Assembly (NCBI GenBank): GCA_002255985.1
Contig: NKIR01000001.1
Span: 428,914 to 492,913 of the forward strand
From: Sphingomonadaceae bacterium PASS1
GTDB taxonomy: Bacteria > Pseudomonadota > Alphaproteobacteria > Sphingomonadales > Sphingomonadaceae
Length of the DNA stretch: 64,000 nucleotides
Reading direction: 5' to 3'
Under the pieces are notes generated by a model. The model did not search any database and was not told the DNA's origin. It was given only the letters and a program-made list of their open reading frames with translations. The position numbers and the translations under genes are program-made. This document shows positions 18,268-53,168 of this stretch, in pieces (the stretch's first letter is position 1; each line of letters opens with the position of its first letter).

Positions 18268-18287
18268 TCCTGAAACAAGTTCAGGAC
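18268..18287. repeat. Short family-1 palindrome
   Basis: TCCTGAAACAAGTTCAGGA is the core half-element of the family-1 palindromic repeats seen in full at 28669-28751. It sits between nusB and thiL and can form a small hairpin in the transcript. Confidence 0.7.
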
Positions 18288-27971: not shown

Positions 27972-28643
27972 ATGAACGTTACCGAAGCCGTCGCATCACG
28001 GCGTTCCGTCCGTCAATTTCTGGATACGCCCGTCGAAAGGGAAATCCTCGAACGCGTGCTCAAAAAGGCGCAGCGAGCACCATCGGGTGGCAATACGCAG
28101 CCTTGGAATGCCGTCATAATGACAGGTGCGCCGCTGGCTGACCTCACCGCAAAGATAAAGGCCAAAGCCGCCACTGCGCCCATGGGTGATGGCCATGAAT
28201 ATGACATCTATCCCAAGGGGCTGGAGGGCCGTTACGAAGACCAACGCCGCGGCGTGGGCAAGGCGATGTTTGACGCGCTTGGCTTGGCGCGCGAAGATGG
28301 CGCTGGCCGTGTCGCGCAAATGGCGAAAAACTGGGACAGCTTCGGCGCGCCGGTGCAATTGTTCACCTACACGCGCAAATATATGGGCCCGCCGCAATGG
28401 TCGGACATGGGCATGTGGCTGCAAACGGTCATGCTGTTGCTGCGCGAAGAAGGCCTCGACAGCTGCGCGCAGGAAATTTGGGCGATGTACGGCATGACGA
28501 TGCGCGCATTGCTCAACATTGATGACGATCATATTTTCTTCTGCGGCATGGCGATTGGCTATCGCGATGCCGATGCGCCAGTGAACAGTTTCAATGTCCC
28601 CCGCGTGGAGATTGACCAAGCGATCCGCTGGGACGGGTTTTGA
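27972..28643 (+). CDS. Nitroreductase family FMN-dependent oxidoreductase
   Basis: 223 residues. FMN-binding signatures are VASRRSVRQFLDTPV at the N-terminus, APSGGNTQPWNAVI, and MGMWLQTVMLLLREEGLDSC in the middle. The C-terminus VEIDQAIRWDGF is typical of a sphingomonad subgroup. Such enzymes reduce nitroaromatics, quinones or enones with NAD(P)H. The last 75 bp of the gene recur downstream of the desaturase gene (29906-29980). Confidence 0.9.
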   Translation: MNVTEAVASRRSVRQFLDTPVEREILERVLKKAQRAPSGGNTQPWNAVIMTGAPLADLTAKIKAKAATAPMGDGHEYDIYPKGLEGRYEDQRRGVGKAMFDALGLAREDGAGRVAQMAKNWDSFGAPVQLFTYTRKYMGPPQWSDMGMWLQTVMLLLREEGLDSCAQEIWAMYGMTMRALLNIDDDHIFFCGMAIGYRDADAPVNSFNVPRVEIDQAIRWDGF

Positions 28644-28668
28644 AAACCGCAGCCCTATGAGAATATCT

Positions 28669-28751
28669 GTCACCCTGAACTTGTTTCAGGGTCTTACTTT
28701 CGCGGCGGTAAAGGCGAAAAAATTAAGACCCTGAAACAAGTTCAGGGTGAC
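28669..28751. repeat. Family-1 long palindromic repeat (complete)
   Basis: Two 28-bp arms are perfect inverted copies (28669-28696 and 28724-28751; each arm contains CCCTGAACTTGTTTCAGGG), separated by 27 bp. Each arm is itself a small palindrome, so the RNA can fold either as one long hairpin or as two short ones. It lies right after the nitroreductase and may terminate transcription. Confidence 0.9.
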
Positions 28752-28837: not shown

Positions 28838-29029
28838 ATGTCAGTAGTGAAGTCTCTCTTCTTTTTCGGGCCATTGTTCTTTGGCCTCGCCTTCCTTGCG
28901 CCTTTGGTTGCGCAAGTGATGGTCCGGCTGGATTTGAACGCACCCTTTGCGTTGTCGCCGCTCCAATTCGGTCTGATTATCGGAACGGTGCTGGGCTTGA
29001 TCGCGACATATCGGGGCAAATGGATATGA
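28838..29029 (+). CDS. Small two-helix membrane protein
   Basis: 63 residues from ATG 28838 (MSVVKSLFFFGPLFFGLAFL). Two hydrophobic segments flank a short polar turn (VRLDLNAPFALSPLQF). No family recognised. Its TGA overlaps the ATG of the desaturase gene by 4 bp, so the two proteins are made together and may interact in the membrane. GTG at 28847 is an alternative start. Confidence 0.65.
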   Translation: MSVVKSLFFFGPLFFGLAFLAPLVAQVMVRLDLNAPFALSPLQFGLIIGTVLGLIATYRGKWI

Positions 29030-29883
29030 CCAGTCAAAGCCTGCGCGCGCGGGAAAAGGCAATTGCCGAACAGTTCATGGGCGGCATTCCGTGGCTCATG
29101 GTGTTTTGGGGCATTACGAACACGGCCATTTGGATCGCATTATGGCCGTTGGTCTTTACCGGCATTATGCCGTTGTGGCTTGGCTTCATCATCGCGACGA
29201 TCAATATCACGGCGAGCTACCTGCCCTCGCATGATGCCCAGCACTATATTATCGCGCCAAAGGGATCAAAACTGGAATGGTTCAACGAGCTCGTCGGACA
29301 CTGGTCGCTCATTCCGTTGACGCTTCCGCTGCGTACGGCGCGGATCACGCATATGGAGCATCATAAGCACGCCAATGATCCGCTGTTGGACCCCGACTAT
29401 TCGACCCACGCAACCGGTCCGTTGCAGGCATTATGGAAAACCATCGTCAACCGCCAACCCCGGGCCGAAGGGGGCTTTAACCGTTATGGCCAGCTGTTGC
29501 AGCAATGGGACAGCCCAGCCGCCAAGTCCGCTTTGACGGACGCGATTATCAACAAAATCTTGTTCTTCGGCATTCTCGCCGCTTTGGCACTGAGCGGCTA
29601 TGCGATAGAGGCTGCGTTGCTGTGGTGGCTGCCGCGGCATTTGGCGCTGACCTATATTTCATTCTACCTCAGCTGGGCTCCGCATCATCCCGGCGTCGAA
29701 AAAGGACGGTATAAGGACACCAGAGCCTTCAAAAGCCGCATGGGCAATATCTGGTCATCGGGCATGCAATATCACATCGTTCATCATCTTTATCCCACGA
29801 TCCCGCTGAACAAGACCCCGGCGGCATACCGCGCGCTCCGCCCGATATTGTTGGAACGTGGCTGTAATCTCGACCATATGTAG
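29026..29883 (+). CDS. Membrane fatty acid desaturase/hydroxylase family protein
   Basis: 285 residues with four or more membrane segments. All three di-iron His boxes are present: HDAQH near residue 69, HMEHHKH near 109 and HIVHHLYP near 250. These ligate the non-heme di-iron centre of membrane desaturases, hydroxylases and carotene ketolases. The substrate is not evident; fatty acid or carotenoid are both possible in sphingomonads. Together with its small membrane partner it is bracketed by 75-bp direct repeats derived from the nitroreductase gene. Confidence 0.88.
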   Translation: MTSQSLRAREKAIAEQFMGGIPWLMVFWGITNTAIWIALWPLVFTGIMPLWLGFIIATINITASYLPSHDAQHYIIAPKGSKLEWFNELVGHWSLIPLTLPLRTARITHMEHHKHANDPLLDPDYSTHATGPLQALWKTIVNRQPRAEGGFNRYGQLLQQWDSPAAKSALTDAIINKILFFGILAALALSGYAIEAALLWWLPRHLALTYISFYLSWAPHHPGVEKGRYKDTRAFKSRMGNIWSSGMQYHIVHHLYPTIPLNKTPAAYRALRPILLERGCNLDHM

Positions 29884-29905: not shown

Positions 29906-29980
29906 GCCGATGCGCCGGTGAACAATATTACCGTAGCCAGCGTGGAGATTGATCAAGCGATCCGCTGGGACGGGTTTTAA
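29906..29980 (+). pseudogene. Remnant of a second nitroreductase 3' end
   Basis: About 64 of 75 bases match the last 75 bp of the nitroreductase gene (28569-28643). The translation ends SVEIDQAIRWDGF then a stop, just as in the intact gene. No reading frame leads into it. This is a leftover of a tandem duplication or of a recombination event that placed the desaturase pair here. Confidence 0.8.
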
Positions 29981-29985
29981 ATATT

Positions 29986-30088
29986 ACCGTAGCCCTGAGC
30001 AGCAGGCAGCGCCTGCGCCCGTCGAAGGGCGCCTCTCGACTGCAGCGCAACACCGATAAGCGCCCTTCGACAGGCTCAGGGCTACGGT
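29986..30088. repeat. Family-3 palindromic repeat
   Basis: The ends are inverted: ACCGTAGCCCTGAGC at the left and the GGCTCAGGGCTACGGT type at the right. Internal blocks CGTCGAAGGGCGC and GCGCCCTTCGAC are also inverted, and a small GCAGGC..GCCTGC stem lies in the left part. The same layout recurs at 32914-33007 and 37178-37306. It fills most of the 246-bp gap before cysS. Confidence 0.85.
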
Positions 30089-30129
30089 GAGTGTTGACGA
30101 TTCCAGTTTGGCAACGCAAGGAACCATCC

Positions 30130-31614
30130 ATGTCCGAGCTTAAACTCTTTAACAGCCTGACCCGGCAACTGGAAACCTTCACACCCGTTCATCATGGCGA
30201 GGCGCGGGTCTATACCTGCGGCCCGACGGTCTATAATTACCCGCACATCGGCAACATGCGCGCATATGTTTTTGCCGATACGCTTGGCCGGGTGCTGTCA
30301 TATAAGGGCTATAAGCTCACCCATGTCATCAACATCACCGATGTCGGCCATCTGACCGACGACGCCGATGCGGGCGAAGACAAGATGGAGAAGATGGCGG
30401 CGGAAAAGGCGCAGTCGATCTGGGACATCGCGCGGCATTACACGCAAGCCTATTGGGACGACATCAAGGCGCTGAACATCCGTCAGCCCGCGCATTGGTC
30501 GATTGCGACCGAATATGTCCCTGCGATGATCGCCTATGCGACCAGCATTGCCGACAAGCATTGCTACGAATTGGAATCTGGCCTGTATTTCGACACATCG
30601 ACCGTTGCCAATTATGGCGCATTGGCCCGAGCCAAGACCGAGGACGGAGAAGGCCGCATCGAAGAGGTCGAAGGCAAACGCCACGCCGCCGACTTTGCCA
30701 TCTGGCGCAAGACGCCAGCGGGCGAAAAACGGCAAATGGAATGGGACAGCCCATGGGGCAAAGGCGCGCCGGGTTGGCATTTGGAATGCTCGGTAATGTC
30801 AGAGGCGCTGCTCGGCCTGCCGTTTGACATCCACACCGGCGGCATCGACCACCGCGAAATCCACCACCCCAATGAAATCGCCCAAAATCAGGCGCGCTGC
30901 GGCAGTGGCCACAGCGGCGCACAATTTTGGATGCACAACAATTTCCTGATCGAACGCAGTGGGAAGATGAGCAAATCATCTGGCGAATTTCTGCGCGTGC
31001 AATTGCTGATCGACAAAGGCTTCCACCCCCTCGCCTACCGCCTGATGTGCCTGCAAGCGCATTACCGCAGCGAACTGGAGTTTAGCTGGGAGGGTTTGCA
31101 GGCTGCGCTGGTGCGGTTGAAGCGGATGGTGATGGCTGTCTCAAACCTCAAGGCTCGTCATGCTGAACTTGTTTCAGCATCTTACTTAGCGACGTCGGAA
31201 AGTAAGACCCTGAAACACGTTCAGGGTGACGTTGCTCCGGGAATTTCGGCGACGCTTAACGATTTTGCGGCGGCTGTTTCAGATGACCTCAATACCGCAA
31301 TTGCGATCACGTCACTCGAAACGCTCATCGGCTTGAAAAAGGTCGACGTTGCACAGCATATTGCCGCGATTGCCGAGATGGACGCAGTTCTGGGTCTGAA
31401 CCTTAATAGCCTCACCCGCACCGACCTGCGCATCCGCCCTAAAGCCGCCGTCATCACCGAAGCCGAAATCGAAGCCGCCCTTGCCGCCCGCAAGGAAGCC
31501 CGCGCCGCCAAGGACTTCGCCAAGTCCGACGCGATCCGCGACGACCTGATCGCCAAAGGCGTAGAAGTGATGGACGGCGACCCGCTGGGTTGGGATTGGA
31601 AGTTGGATATATGA
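30130..31614 (+). CDS. cysS: Cysteinyl-tRNA synthetase with a repeat-derived insert
   Basis: 494 residues. Class I signatures: PHIGNMRAYV near residue 38 and KMSKS at 279; the zinc-site region CGPTVYN and WHLECSVMS and the conserved GGIDHREIHHPNE are intact. It charges tRNA-Cys. The start is the ATG at 30130 (MSELKLFNSL) after AAGGAACC. Residues about 343-367 (HAELVSAS ... SKTLKHVQGD) are encoded by a family-1 palindromic repeat and lie between the catalytic core and the C-terminal helical DALR-type domain, a place where an extra loop could be tolerated. The stop overlaps the next ATG by 4 bp. Confidence 0.95.
   Translation: MSELKLFNSLTRQLETFTPVHHGEARVYTCGPTVYNYPHIGNMRAYVFADTLGRVLSYKGYKLTHVINITDVGHLTDDADAGEDKMEKMAAEKAQSIWDIARHYTQAYWDDIKALNIRQPAHWSIATEYVPAMIAYATSIADKHCYELESGLYFDTSTVANYGALARAKTEDGEGRIEEVEGKRHAADFAIWRKTPAGEKRQMEWDSPWGKGAPGWHLECSVMSEALLGLPFDIHTGGIDHREIHHPNEIAQNQARCGSGHSGAQFWMHNNFLIERSGKMSKSSGEFLRVQLLIDKGFHPLAYRLMCLQAHYRSELEFSWEGLQAALVRLKRMVMAVSNLKARHAELVSASYLATSESKTLKHVQGDVAPGISATLNDFAAAVSDDLNTAIAITSLETLIGLKKVDVAQHIAAIAEMDAVLGLNLNSLTRTDLRIRPKAAVITEAEIEAALAARKEARAAKDFAKSDAIRDDLIAKGVEVMDGDPLGWDWKLDI
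31157..31230. repeat. Family-1 palindromic repeat inside cysS
   Basis: GTCATGCTGAACTTGTTTCAG on the left and CCTGAAACACGTTCAGGGTG on the right mirror each other around a 20-odd-bp centre. The copy keeps the cysS frame open and adds about 25 residues. It has mismatches compared with the 28669 copy, which suggests that it is not brand new. Confidence 0.88.
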
Positions 31615-31967: not shown

Positions 31968-32908
31968 CCAAAACGAAACTCGTGATGTCGGGCCTTGTGC
32001 GCCCCCTCATTGAACCGCGTTTGCCCGATTGGATCGAGCCGCATTTCTTCATGTCCAAGGAAGAGGCGCTCGCCCTCTCACCGCAGGCCGAGATTGGCTG
32101 GTTCGACATGTATGACAAGGGCGATATGGCCACGGTCATCAATGCCGCGACCAACATGAAATGGCTGAACAGCATCTATGCCGGTGTCGACGGCATGCCG
32201 CTGGCGCAGTTGAAGGCGCAGGGCTGCGTTGTCACCAATGGCGCAGGCATTAACGCGATCACCATCGCCGAATATGTCGTCATGGGCACGCTGACCGTCG
32301 CCAAAAACTATCGCGAAGTTGTCCGCGCGCAGGAACGCCGCGAATGGCTGCTCGATTCGCCCGGCAAGGTTGAACTGTTCGGTTCCAAGGCTTTGCTGCT
32401 TGGCTATGGCGCGATCGGGAAGCTTATTGCAGAGCGGCTGAAGCCATTTGGCGTCGATGTCACCATTGTGCGCCGCTCGGCGGGTCCAAACACGCTAACG
32501 CCCGATCAATGGCGTGCCCAATTGGGCGATTTTGACTGGGTCATCCTTGCCGTTCCCGCGACCGCGGAAACCGACGGCATGATTGGCGCAGACGAACTTG
32601 CCGCGATGAAAAATAGCGCAACGCTCATCAACATCGCGCGCGGTTCCGTCATCGATCAGGACGCATTGGTCACCGCGTTGCAGGACAAGCACATCGCCAA
32701 TGCCTTCCTTGATGTGACGACGCCCGAACCTTTGCCCGCCGATCACCCTTTGTGGAGCCTCGACAACGCGCATGTCACCATGCACCTGTCGGGCCGTGCG
32801 CAGGACAAGATGTTCGTGCGCTCCGCCACGCGCTTCTTCGAAAATCTGGAGCGCTACCGCCAAGGCGCGCCGCTTGAGCCAATGGTAAACCTCGATCTGG
32901 GATATTAA
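31964..32908 (+). CDS. D-2-hydroxyacid dehydrogenase (NAD(P)-binding)
   Basis: 314 residues. The Rossmann motif is GYGAIGKLIAERL. The catalytic Arg region is TLINIARGSVIDQDAL, then a Glu in DVTTPEPLPADHPLW, and His is seen in HVTMHLSGRAQ. These are the features of the D-isomer 2-hydroxyacid dehydrogenases, which interconvert 2-oxo and D-2-hydroxy acids; the exact acid is not evident. Coupled by ATGA to the upstream membrane gene and followed by a family-3 repeat. Confidence 0.88.
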   Translation: MTKTKLVMSGLVRPLIEPRLPDWIEPHFFMSKEEALALSPQAEIGWFDMYDKGDMATVINAATNMKWLNSIYAGVDGMPLAQLKAQGCVVTNGAGINAITIAEYVVMGTLTVAKNYREVVRAQERREWLLDSPGKVELFGSKALLLGYGAIGKLIAERLKPFGVDVTIVRRSAGPNTLTPDQWRAQLGDFDWVILAVPATAETDGMIGADELAAMKNSATLINIARGSVIDQDALVTALQDKHIANAFLDVTTPEPLPADHPLWSLDNAHVTMHLSGRAQDKMFVRSATRFFENLERYRQGAPLEPMVNLDLGY

Positions 32909-32913
32909 TAAAC

Positions 32914-33007
32914 ACCGTAGCCCTGAGCAGCAGCCGCAAAGCGGCTGCGTCCGTCGAAGGGCGCTTATCGGGTGTAGCACTACCCCCGACAGGCTCAGCA
33001 CTACGGT
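32914..33007. repeat. Family-3 palindromic repeat
   Basis: ACCGTAGCCCTGAGCAGCAG on the left and GGCTCAGCACTACGGT on the right form imperfect outer arms, with CCGTCGAAGGGCGC internally and a GCAGCCGC..GCGGCTGC stem. Occupies nearly all of the gap before the SnoaL-like gene. Confidence 0.85.
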
Positions 33008-37177: not shown

Positions 37178-37306
37178 ACCGCAGTCCTGAGCCATCAGCG
37201 CGGCACGCGCTGATGAACGTCGAAGAACGCCCATCGTTGATGCACCAGCATTATACGCACCCTTCGACGGACGCAGCCGCAAGCGGCCGCTGCTCAGGGC
37301 TTCGGT
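37178..37306. repeat. Family-3 palindromic repeat in the hisA-hisF gap
   Basis: Left end ACCGCAGTCCTGAGC and right end GCTCAGGGCTTCGGT are inverted, with internal ACGTCGAAGAACGCCC and CACCCTTCGACGGACG, and two further stems: CAGCGCG..CGCGCTG and GCAGCCGC..GCGGCCGC. Longer than the other two copies. It could attenuate hisF expression relative to hisA. Confidence 0.8.
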
Positions 37307-41222: not shown

Positions 41223-41301
41223 GTAATGCTGAACTTGTTTCAGCATCTTAATTTTCGTTGGACGGTGATAAAGTAAGATCCTGAAACAAGTTCAGGATGA
41301 C
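41223..41301. repeat. Family-1 palindromic repeat
   Basis: GTAATGCTGAACTTGTTTCA and TCCTGAAACAAGTTCAGGAT arms flank a centre with TCTTAATTTTC..AAAGTAAGA. It follows fumC by 13 bp and may act as its transcription end. The left arm has the TGCTGAAC variant also seen in the cysS copy. Confidence 0.85.
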
Positions 41302-50872: not shown

Positions 50873-51145
50873 ATGTCTGCACTTACCCTGACCCCGGAAG
50901 CGATCACCGCGCTGGTGTCCGACCGAAACGAGCTATCGCTGCGCGTGGTGCCGGGGGCAAAGGTGGAAAAGGCGGCGATTGAAAATGGCACACTCAAAAT
51001 CTGTCTCCGCACCGCGCCGGAGGATGGCAAGGCGAACAAGGCCGTGCTGGCCATCTTGGCCAAGCGGTTGGGGATATCGATCAGCCAGTTGGAAATCACC
51101 CGTGGCCAAACTGCGCGCGATAAACGGGTACGGGTAGAGACGTAA
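50873..51145 (+). CDS. DUF167 (YggU family) protein
   Basis: 90 residues: LSLRVVPGAKVEKAAIENGTL ... LRTAPEDGKANKAVLAILAKRLGISISQLEI ... GQTARDKRVRV. This is the complete YggU/DUF167 fold with the conserved P-x-D-G-x-A-N-x-A signature. Function unknown. A truncated copy lies at 52821-53025 in the same orientation. Confidence 0.9.
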   Translation: MSALTLTPEAITALVSDRNELSLRVVPGAKVEKAAIENGTLKICLRTAPEDGKANKAVLAILAKRLGISISQLEITRGQTARDKRVRVET

Positions 51146-51187
51146 GCGAAGGGCTTTCTTGGCCGGGAAAGTGAAAGATCACACTCC

Positions 51188-51287
51188 GTAACCCTGAACT
51201 CGTTTTGGCTTTGCCAGCCTTCGGCCTCGGGGTCTTAATGAGGACCGAGCGCGAAAAAGTAAGACCCTGAAACAAGTTCAGGGTGAC
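51188..51287. repeat. Family-1 palindromic repeat, variant with an extended left arm
   Basis: The right arm (AAGACCCTGAAACAAGTTCA) is standard. The left arm carries an extra block of about 20 bp, GGCTTTGCCAGCCTTCGGC, in place of the core. The same block in inverse orientation appears in the right arm of the copy at 53068-53168. Confidence 0.8.
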
Positions 51288-52227: not shown

Positions 52228-52327
52228 TGATATCTCCGGTATTATTTTCATTCAAACGCCGTGTGATGATGACGAAATTTCACACGGCGCGAATTATTTG
52301 ACAGTTCAGATCTAACCGAAGCGATGC

Positions 52328-52720
52328 TCAGCCCGACTTTTCTGGCTTCTCTGGCTTCTCTGGCTTCTCGGGCTTCTCTGCCTTTTCAGGCTTTTCTGGC
52401 TTCTCTGCCTTTTCAGGCTTCTCTGGCTTCTCTGCCTTCTCTGCCTTCTCTGCCTTCTCTGGCTTTTCTGCTCTCTCAGCACGCTCTGCACGTTCTTCGC
52501 GCTCAGGACGCTCGGCGCGTTCTTCCCGTTCAGCGCGCTCAGCGCGTTCTTCTCGCTCGGCGCGCTCAGCGCGTTCTTCTTCAGTATCTTCGCGATTTAC
52601 GACCGAACTCTTGCTTGCGCTATCGTCAGATCCAGACGTGCCCGTGGTCTGAGCCGACAGACCGGTCATGCCACCAATTGCCACAACGGCAGCCGTGCTG
52701 GCGATTATAAGTTTTTTCAT
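52328..52720 (-). CDS. Exported charged-repeat protein (A/P-E-R/K triplets)
   Basis: 130 residues. Signal peptide MKKLIIASTAAVVAIGGMTG...A, then a short Ser/Asp-rich part, then about 80 residues made of triplets [A/P]-E-[R/K]. They group into 9-residue units: AERAEREER (three times with small changes), then AEKPEKPEK (three or more). The first half should form a stiff single helix with E-R salt bridges; the second half, with Pro every third residue, should be extended. This recalls the EP/KP linkers of TonB but there is no recognisable binding domain. Composition differs sharply from neighbours. Confidence 0.75.
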   Translation of the reverse strand: MKKLIIASTAAVVAIGGMTGLSAQTTGTSGSDDSASKSSVVNREDTEEERAERAEREERAERAEREERAERPEREERAERAERAEKPEKAEKAEKAEKPEKPEKAEKPEKPEKAEKPEKPEKPEKPEKSG

Positions 52721-52820: not shown

Positions 52821-53025
52821 GCGTGGCGTTGCGGGGGCAAAGGTGGAAAAGGCCGCGATTGAAAACGGCGCACTCAAAATCTGGCTCCGCACCGCGCCGG
52901 AGGATGGCAGGGCAAACAAGGCCGTGCTGGCCATCTTGGCAAAGCCGTTGAGGATATCGGTTAACCAGTTGGAAATCACCCACGGCCAAACGGCGCGGGA
53001 CAAACGGGTGCGGGTTTTGGTGTGA
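52821..53025 (+). pseudogene. 5'-truncated second copy of the DUF167 gene
   Basis: The 205-bp stretch repeats the 3' two thirds of the gene at 50873-51145: GAKVEKAAIENGALKIWLRT ... QLEITHGQTARDKRVRVLV. The first 24 or so residues are missing and no start in a proper context is present, although a GTG at 52843 would give 60 residues. The homology continues beyond the stop through a family-1 repeat, so the duplicated unit is about 340 bp. Confidence 0.75.
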
Positions 53026-53067
53026 GGGGCCGCCTCTCTTCGCCGGGAAAGTGAAACATCACTCTCC

Positions 53068-53168
53068 GTCACCCTGAACTTGTTTCAGGGTCTTAATTCT
53101 GCACCGCGCGCGAAAAAGTAAGACCCGGGAGCCCAAGGCTGGCAAAGCCAAAACAAGTTCAAGGTGAT
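53068..53168. repeat. Family-1 palindromic repeat, variant with an extended right arm
   Basis: The left arm is standard (GTCACCCTGAACTTGTTTCA). The right arm has the additional CCCAAGGCTGGCAAAGCC block, which is the inverse of the block in the left arm of the 51188 copy. It follows the truncated DUF167 copy in the same arrangement as around the intact gene. Confidence 0.8.

Follow-up and report, generated by a model that had tools for sequence, protein, structure and literature searches.

How does a dispersed palindromic repeat come to be translated within an essential enzyme, and is it a recent arrival there or an old resident? The question is raised by cysS, an essential gene, in the 64,000-nucleotide stretch of the Sphingomonadaceae bacterium PASS1 genome analysed here (the window). 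An earlier note had proposed that a palindromic repeat adds about 25 residues, in frame, to the cysteinyl-tRNA synthetase (CysRS) encoded by this gene. This was confirmed, with limits one base wider on each side than the 31157..31230 given there. The genome (3.07 Mb, 95.9% complete) contains one full-length CysRS match; the other match is only a 49-residue piece covering the repeat. The gene, the parts of its repeat and the other copies in the window are as follows:

30130..31614, + strand: cysS, cysteinyl-tRNA synthetase, 494 aa with no internal stop, the sole full-length copy found in the genome
31156..31231, + strand: CGTC-tagged REP dimer, head to head with tags outside, in frame and coding for RHAELVSASYLATSESKTLKHVQGD (residues 343-367)
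31156..31181, + strand: 5′ REP arm, tag CGTC, 8-bp stem ATGCTGAA/TTCAGCAT, loop CTTGT
31182..31205, + strand: element centre of the TTACTT..AAGTAA type, differing from the long centre of sister species
31206..31231, + strand: 3′ REP arm, inverted unit, stem ACCCTGAA/TTCAGGGT, one mismatch to the consensus
28675..28745: REP dimer of the same CGTC family, outside genes
41229..41295: REP dimer of the same CGTC family, outside genes
51267..51281, 53074..53088 and 18270..18284: single REPs, each outside genes

The limits of the in-gene element are exact, running from 31156 (CGTC) to 31231 (GACG), and positions 31150-31236, folded as RNA, give one long hairpin (-45.1 kcal/mol, z -7.7) that none of 200 shuffles equalled. 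CGTC REPs are described in the available part of Di Nocera and others (2013, PMC3733652) as multicopy elements, mainly head-to-head dimers and mostly from alphaproteobacteria, with a CGTC tag, a stem of 8-9 bp in which A-T pairs nearly always come first and second, a loop of 4-5 bases and a short tail, most often of CCA type. In the window copy the terminal tag is present at 31156-31159 and, inverted, at 31228-31231, and the 5′ unit fits the description of stem and loop. The 3′ unit has an 8-bp stem and a 5-base loop, but starts with AC, which makes its second pair C-G. The tail reads CTT, as against CCA in most other cysS copies, a difference that does not decide membership since the class description itself says “most”. 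With both arms summed, the window copy has a single mismatch to the consensus. Judged by these sequence features, the repeat within cysS is a member of the CGTC-tagged REP class.

The repeat is dispersed in the genomes of these freshwater bacteria. Searching the window genome with the half-palindrome at up to one mismatch yielded 96 matches, compared with 10 for a backward control. Fifty-five sites were fetched (six one-mismatch places were left out), comprising 33 dimers and 22 singles; 30 of the dimers were judged by eye to have tags outside, and a TTA-type centre was present in 19 of the 33, counting the copies in cysS and ybeY. The statement in the earlier note that other copies in the window lie only between genes holds: at the five other sites no open frame that contains the entire repeat exceeds 77 aa, so there is no credible gene there. 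It does not extend to the genome as a whole, as a second intact dimer among the 55 fetched sites lies in frame in ybeY. A Pfam scan of ten open frames of at least 142 aa around these sites gave YbeY as its sole match, and in two longer open frames (635 and 288 aa) the repeat precedes the likely protein start, as judged by eye. No match to PF01797 (Y1_Tnp) was found in the window genome, whose completeness leaves room for a missed gene, and Rfam returned no family at gathering score for window positions 27500-54000.

Other repeated sequences are also present in the window. The 3′ end (28569-28644) of the gene at 27972-28643 is repeated at 29906-29981 (86%), after the gene at 29020-29883, and this looks like insertion of the latter gene with duplication. 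A second repeat family (CCGTAGCCCTGAGC.., CGTCGAAGGGCGC..) lies at 29972-30090, directly 5′ of cysS, and again at 32900-32986 and 37253-37291. A 265-base direct repeat (85%; 50941-51205 and 52821-53085) has single REPs nearby, and a 9-base tandem array occupies 52310-52516.

The insert had been placed between the catalytic core and the helical domain of the enzyme. The Pfam catalytic match in the window CysRS stops at residue 326, and in the AlphaFold model a helix of residues 320-353 enters the insert, residues 354-366 have pLDDT values below 50 and the next helix spans 370-384. The model of Erythrobacter colymbi CysRS is similar (helix 325-356; 356-366 with pLDDT below 50). On these models the insert instead occupies the loop that joins the first and second helices following the catalytic domain. 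It is predicted to extend one helix and to make up a flexible loop, and about 25 residues of a surface loop would be encoded by the repeat.

To place the insert among relatives, 180 distinct CysRS sequences out of 196 were aligned, eight of them second records of a genome, giving 172 genomes. Both arms were present in 35 of these 172 genes, one arm in five and neither in 132; as 80 named loci were the best 80 of 585 and 60 further loci were taken by place among the matches listed, with later picks leaning to longer genes, 35/172 is not a population frequency. Two-arm calls relied on similarity (at most 7 mismatches per arm), a rule that favours conserved arms, and one out-of-frame locus (L033) was excluded. 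Carrier numbers, site, stem type, substitutions, synonymous difference and centres refer to the 172 genomes (35 two-arm); arm scoring, trees, codon use and the decayed-homologue, stem-pair and dispersed-arm analyses refer to all 180 rows (36 two-arm, eight genomes twice).

The carriers are records of Sphingorhabdus, E. colymbi, E. oryzae, Porphyrobacter, Altererythrobacter and Novosphingobium, and in all 35 the insert sits at the same codon in the same orientation. Counted from the start of the RLK motif, the 5′ arm begins 42 nt downstream in 30 genes and 63 nt downstream in five, the latter being those with a 21-nt duplication. Chance arm matches 5′ of the insert region in the same genes had, at best, at least 9 mismatches of 26 or at least 10 of 25. 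Stem type is identical in all 35 of the 5′ arms and in 34 of the 35 3′ arms, whereas 140 of 207 (5′) and 131 of 205 (3′) dispersed arm readings differ at a stem-type site, each dispersed repeat being read in both registers in a set that may include a few in-gene copies. Since the same site is occupied in other genera, the insert appears to be old. Its age had previously been argued from base differences to an intergenic copy, an argument undercut by the near-consensus arms of the window copy.

A similar segment in most CysRS proteins, which would count against the reading of the earlier note, is not what we found: besides the 132 genes with neither arm, the match to order-level relatives breaks off between residues 330 and 353 in 22 of 24 cases (G055 and G059 align through), and the E. 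coli CysRS alignment had no similarity at the insert. In a tree made from the alignment minus the insert columns, 19-20 changes between presence and absence are required (180 rows, 8 second copies), a number that does not separate gain from loss; a single origin therefore demands many losses. Intact arms were confined to genomes that have REPs at other places too (13 of 13 carriers, vs 44 of 78 non-carriers), and the five one-arm genes are read as partial loss.

Two genes, L107 and L184 (G281), have a different CGTC palindrome that begins at the same cysS nucleotide, with 24 and 28 matches in their own genomes at up to 2 mismatches, the cysS ones counted. The same loop contains a GATCCTCCCCC repeat in a Novosphingobium record (L101), whose genome has 36 matches at up to 3 mismatches, including two in cysS. 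The cysS loop thus tolerates several repeat families. GDV-type repeats occur 3′ of the insert in L049, L015, L011 and L013, and a 21-nt duplication 5′ of it in L049, L011 and L013; repeat slippage is thus a further source of variation in the loop. An uncultured Sphingorhabdus record (L024/L051, one contig) has an in-frame TAG in the loop, perhaps an assembly error.

In-frame REPs were also seen in two other genes. The ybeY gene of the window genome (L214 1314-2003, G000:C7) has its dimer between FPMLEHDELQYL and GAEMEILLGD, and three of the 23 genes aligned from 30 loci (G000, G016 and G027) have a dimer at that site, with two centre types among the three. For truB, 29 of 30 loci were aligned; four inserts look intact and three degenerate, including that of the window genome (L333), and the gene of G011 (L353) has a long array of REP-derived peptide repeats. 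In-frame REPs or apparent remnants are present in truB loci L330-L334, L336, L337 and L353.

Substitutions in the cysS arms fall at third codon positions in 43 of 67 cases, compared with 356 of 1361 in dispersed arms read in the same register. Excluding stem-type sites, the counts are 42/60 and 131/389 (Fisher p 1e-7; halving the dispersed counts, to allow for the reading of every dispersed repeat in both registers, gives 1e-6; both values are too small, as the rows are related). From this third-position excess, the arm peptide seems to be under selection as protein. All 29 distinct cysS elements found with a stricter pattern are in frame and open, vs 49 of 146 oriented dispersed elements.

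The DNA of the arms is also unusually uniform. The share of arm comparisons in which the same residue has different codons is 0.102 (504 carrier pairs with host identity below 0.85), and none of 403 host windows of the same shape was as low (lowest 0.242, median 0.405). Nucleotide difference is 0.070 in the arms vs 0.099 in the lowest host window, and neither result changes when the duplicate genome is included. Adding seven decayed homologues, chosen by eye, and taking all pairs gives a synonymous difference of 0.148, still below the lowest host window, and a nucleotide difference of 0.207, within the host range. Arm codons such as CGT, GCT, CTT and TCA are rare elsewhere in cysS. Decayed loops are present also in genomes rich in REPs, and the number of REP copies was no predictor of arm decay (Spearman -0.29, p 0.34, n 13). 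Per-site variation of the cysS arms did not track that of dispersed arms (rho 0.16, both arms).

The centre of the element tells a different part of the history. The short TTACTT..AAGTAA centre is common to the window genome (G000), G008, G015 and G028, and in the near relatives G014, G024 and G025 the centre is long, of the TCCAT..ATGGA type. The gene tree places the window cysS among these long-centre sisters, and over the 60 nt (twenty codons) up to the insert it is identical to the G014 gene (L005) at 58 of 60 positions. Outside its own four-genome clade, the best score of the window centre is -0.08 against other cysS centres, vs 0.62 against a dispersed copy (L227) of its own genome. Centres were compared for 32 of the 35 two-arm genes: 28 are nearest another cysS, one is tied and for three the nearest is a dispersed copy. 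In the thin sample of 160 oriented dispersed centres, none was an exact donor of the window centre. The window centre looks recently exchanged, and our reading of these comparisons is a single, old insertion that had its middle exchanged in the window's clade; loss followed by re-insertion would look alike.

The account that we favour, at about even odds, is an old insertion into a tolerant loop, retained as peptide while its DNA was refreshed by exchange with dispersed copies. A CGTC REP dimer would have entered cysS before the split of the Sphingorhabdus, Erythrobacter and Novosphingobium lineages sampled. The loop between the first two post-catalytic helices may tolerate about 25 extra residues, and the element could survive there because its length and one reading frame leave cysS open. 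The amino-acid sequence of the arms would then have been selected as part of the enzyme, which the codon-position bias supports, and exchange with REP copies elsewhere in the genome would have kept the arms near the dispersed consensus. In the window's clade the centre has been replaced, probably by such exchange. The element could be lost through deletions that keep the frame, or its codons could decay until they resemble those of the host. More tentatively, we propose that a surface loop of an essential enzyme is continually rewritten by non-coding repeats, with dispersed REPs templating the arms and swapping the centre, and protein selection acting as the filter.

The main rival to an old, refreshed insertion takes the site to be a target, which REP dimers entered at the exact cysS nucleotide many times, leaving arms that are truly young. 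Such re-insertion would explain the scattered distribution with its 19-20 changes, the equal length of the cysS element and common dispersed elements, and the centres of the window and L113, which are nearer to dispersed copies of their own genomes than to cysS centres outside the clade; the single sites used in ybeY, by two centre types in three genomes, and in truB of several genomes fit as well. Its strongest point is the exact nucleotide coincidence of CGTC elements, a different palindrome having the same start in two genomes and recurring elsewhere in both. We nevertheless consider re-insertion unlikely, as the carriers share orientation and, except in one 3′ arm, stem type, where dispersed arms are mixed, and 28 of 32 centres are nearest another cysS. 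Selection for one peptide could account for the shared orientation and stem type, but hardly for the nearest-cysS centres.

The low synonymous change could also mean that selection on the nucleic acid itself preserves the arms, for example as an mRNA hairpin or a protein-binding site within cysS. The arm loops are more variable than the stems, with 17 substitutions in the 5-base loop vs 20 at the 16 stem sites of the 5′ arm and 18 vs 11 in the 3′ arm, as such selection would predict. However, paired changes on both sides occur in just 3 of 576 stem-pair cells, with 18 broken and 6 wobble pairs, and this near-absence of compensation does not favour a selected hairpin. The element is, in addition, absent from most sampled cysS genes, and the Rfam search gave no family, and we regard this explanation as improbable. 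Slightly more improbable still is sideways spread of the insert among species by short homologous recombination of cysS: the inserts of L107 and L184 are identical over about 61 nt despite 82% identity in the 5′ host sequence, and centre types are mixed on the gene tree within the window's clade, but between genera the centres and flanks have diverged while the arms have not, unlike the product of a recent transfer.

The cysS genes of several genera form a natural series within one essential gene, from intact coding REP to decayed host-like loop to empty site. The series allows us to measure how selfish repeats turn into protein, and whether sequence is exchanged between dispersed and coding copies.

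REPINs, which are mobilised by RAYT transposases, resemble the cysS element in being an inverted REP pair able to form one hairpin; they differ in that the window genome has no Y1_Tnp family match. RAYTs are described in PMC3733652, and in its available part a dedicated transposase is reportedly absent for CGTC REPs. The RPE of Rickettsia are likewise palindromes translated in frame in housekeeping genes, but of another host order, and the likeness is one of description, not of sequence comparison. The available text of PMC3733652 assigns RPE-4 and RPE-6 to the CGTC class and reports an R. conorii truB interrupted by RPE-1, which bears out the comparison with RPE drawn in the earlier note for an essential enzyme carrying a dispersed palindrome. 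The interpretation offered there stands in this respect and as to the coding dispersed palindrome, and falls in its age argument and exact position in the enzyme.

The kind of element is already known: the same paper (PMC3733652, available part) reports in-gene CGTC REPs of sphingomonads, in tRNA-synthetase and truB genes of E. litoralis (spelt lithoralis) and S. alaskensis, as well as REPs at roughly one position in two recB genes of Xanthomonas. Its CGTC REP dimers share with the cysS element the CGTC tag, an 8-bp stem, a 5-base loop and tags outside. That part of the paper leaves the synthetase unnamed and gives no long-lived common site, codon selection or centre exchange. Within the literature searched, and as far as the searches show, four points are new: a site common to several genera, the evidence from codon positions, the conservation of synonymous codons and the exchanged centre.
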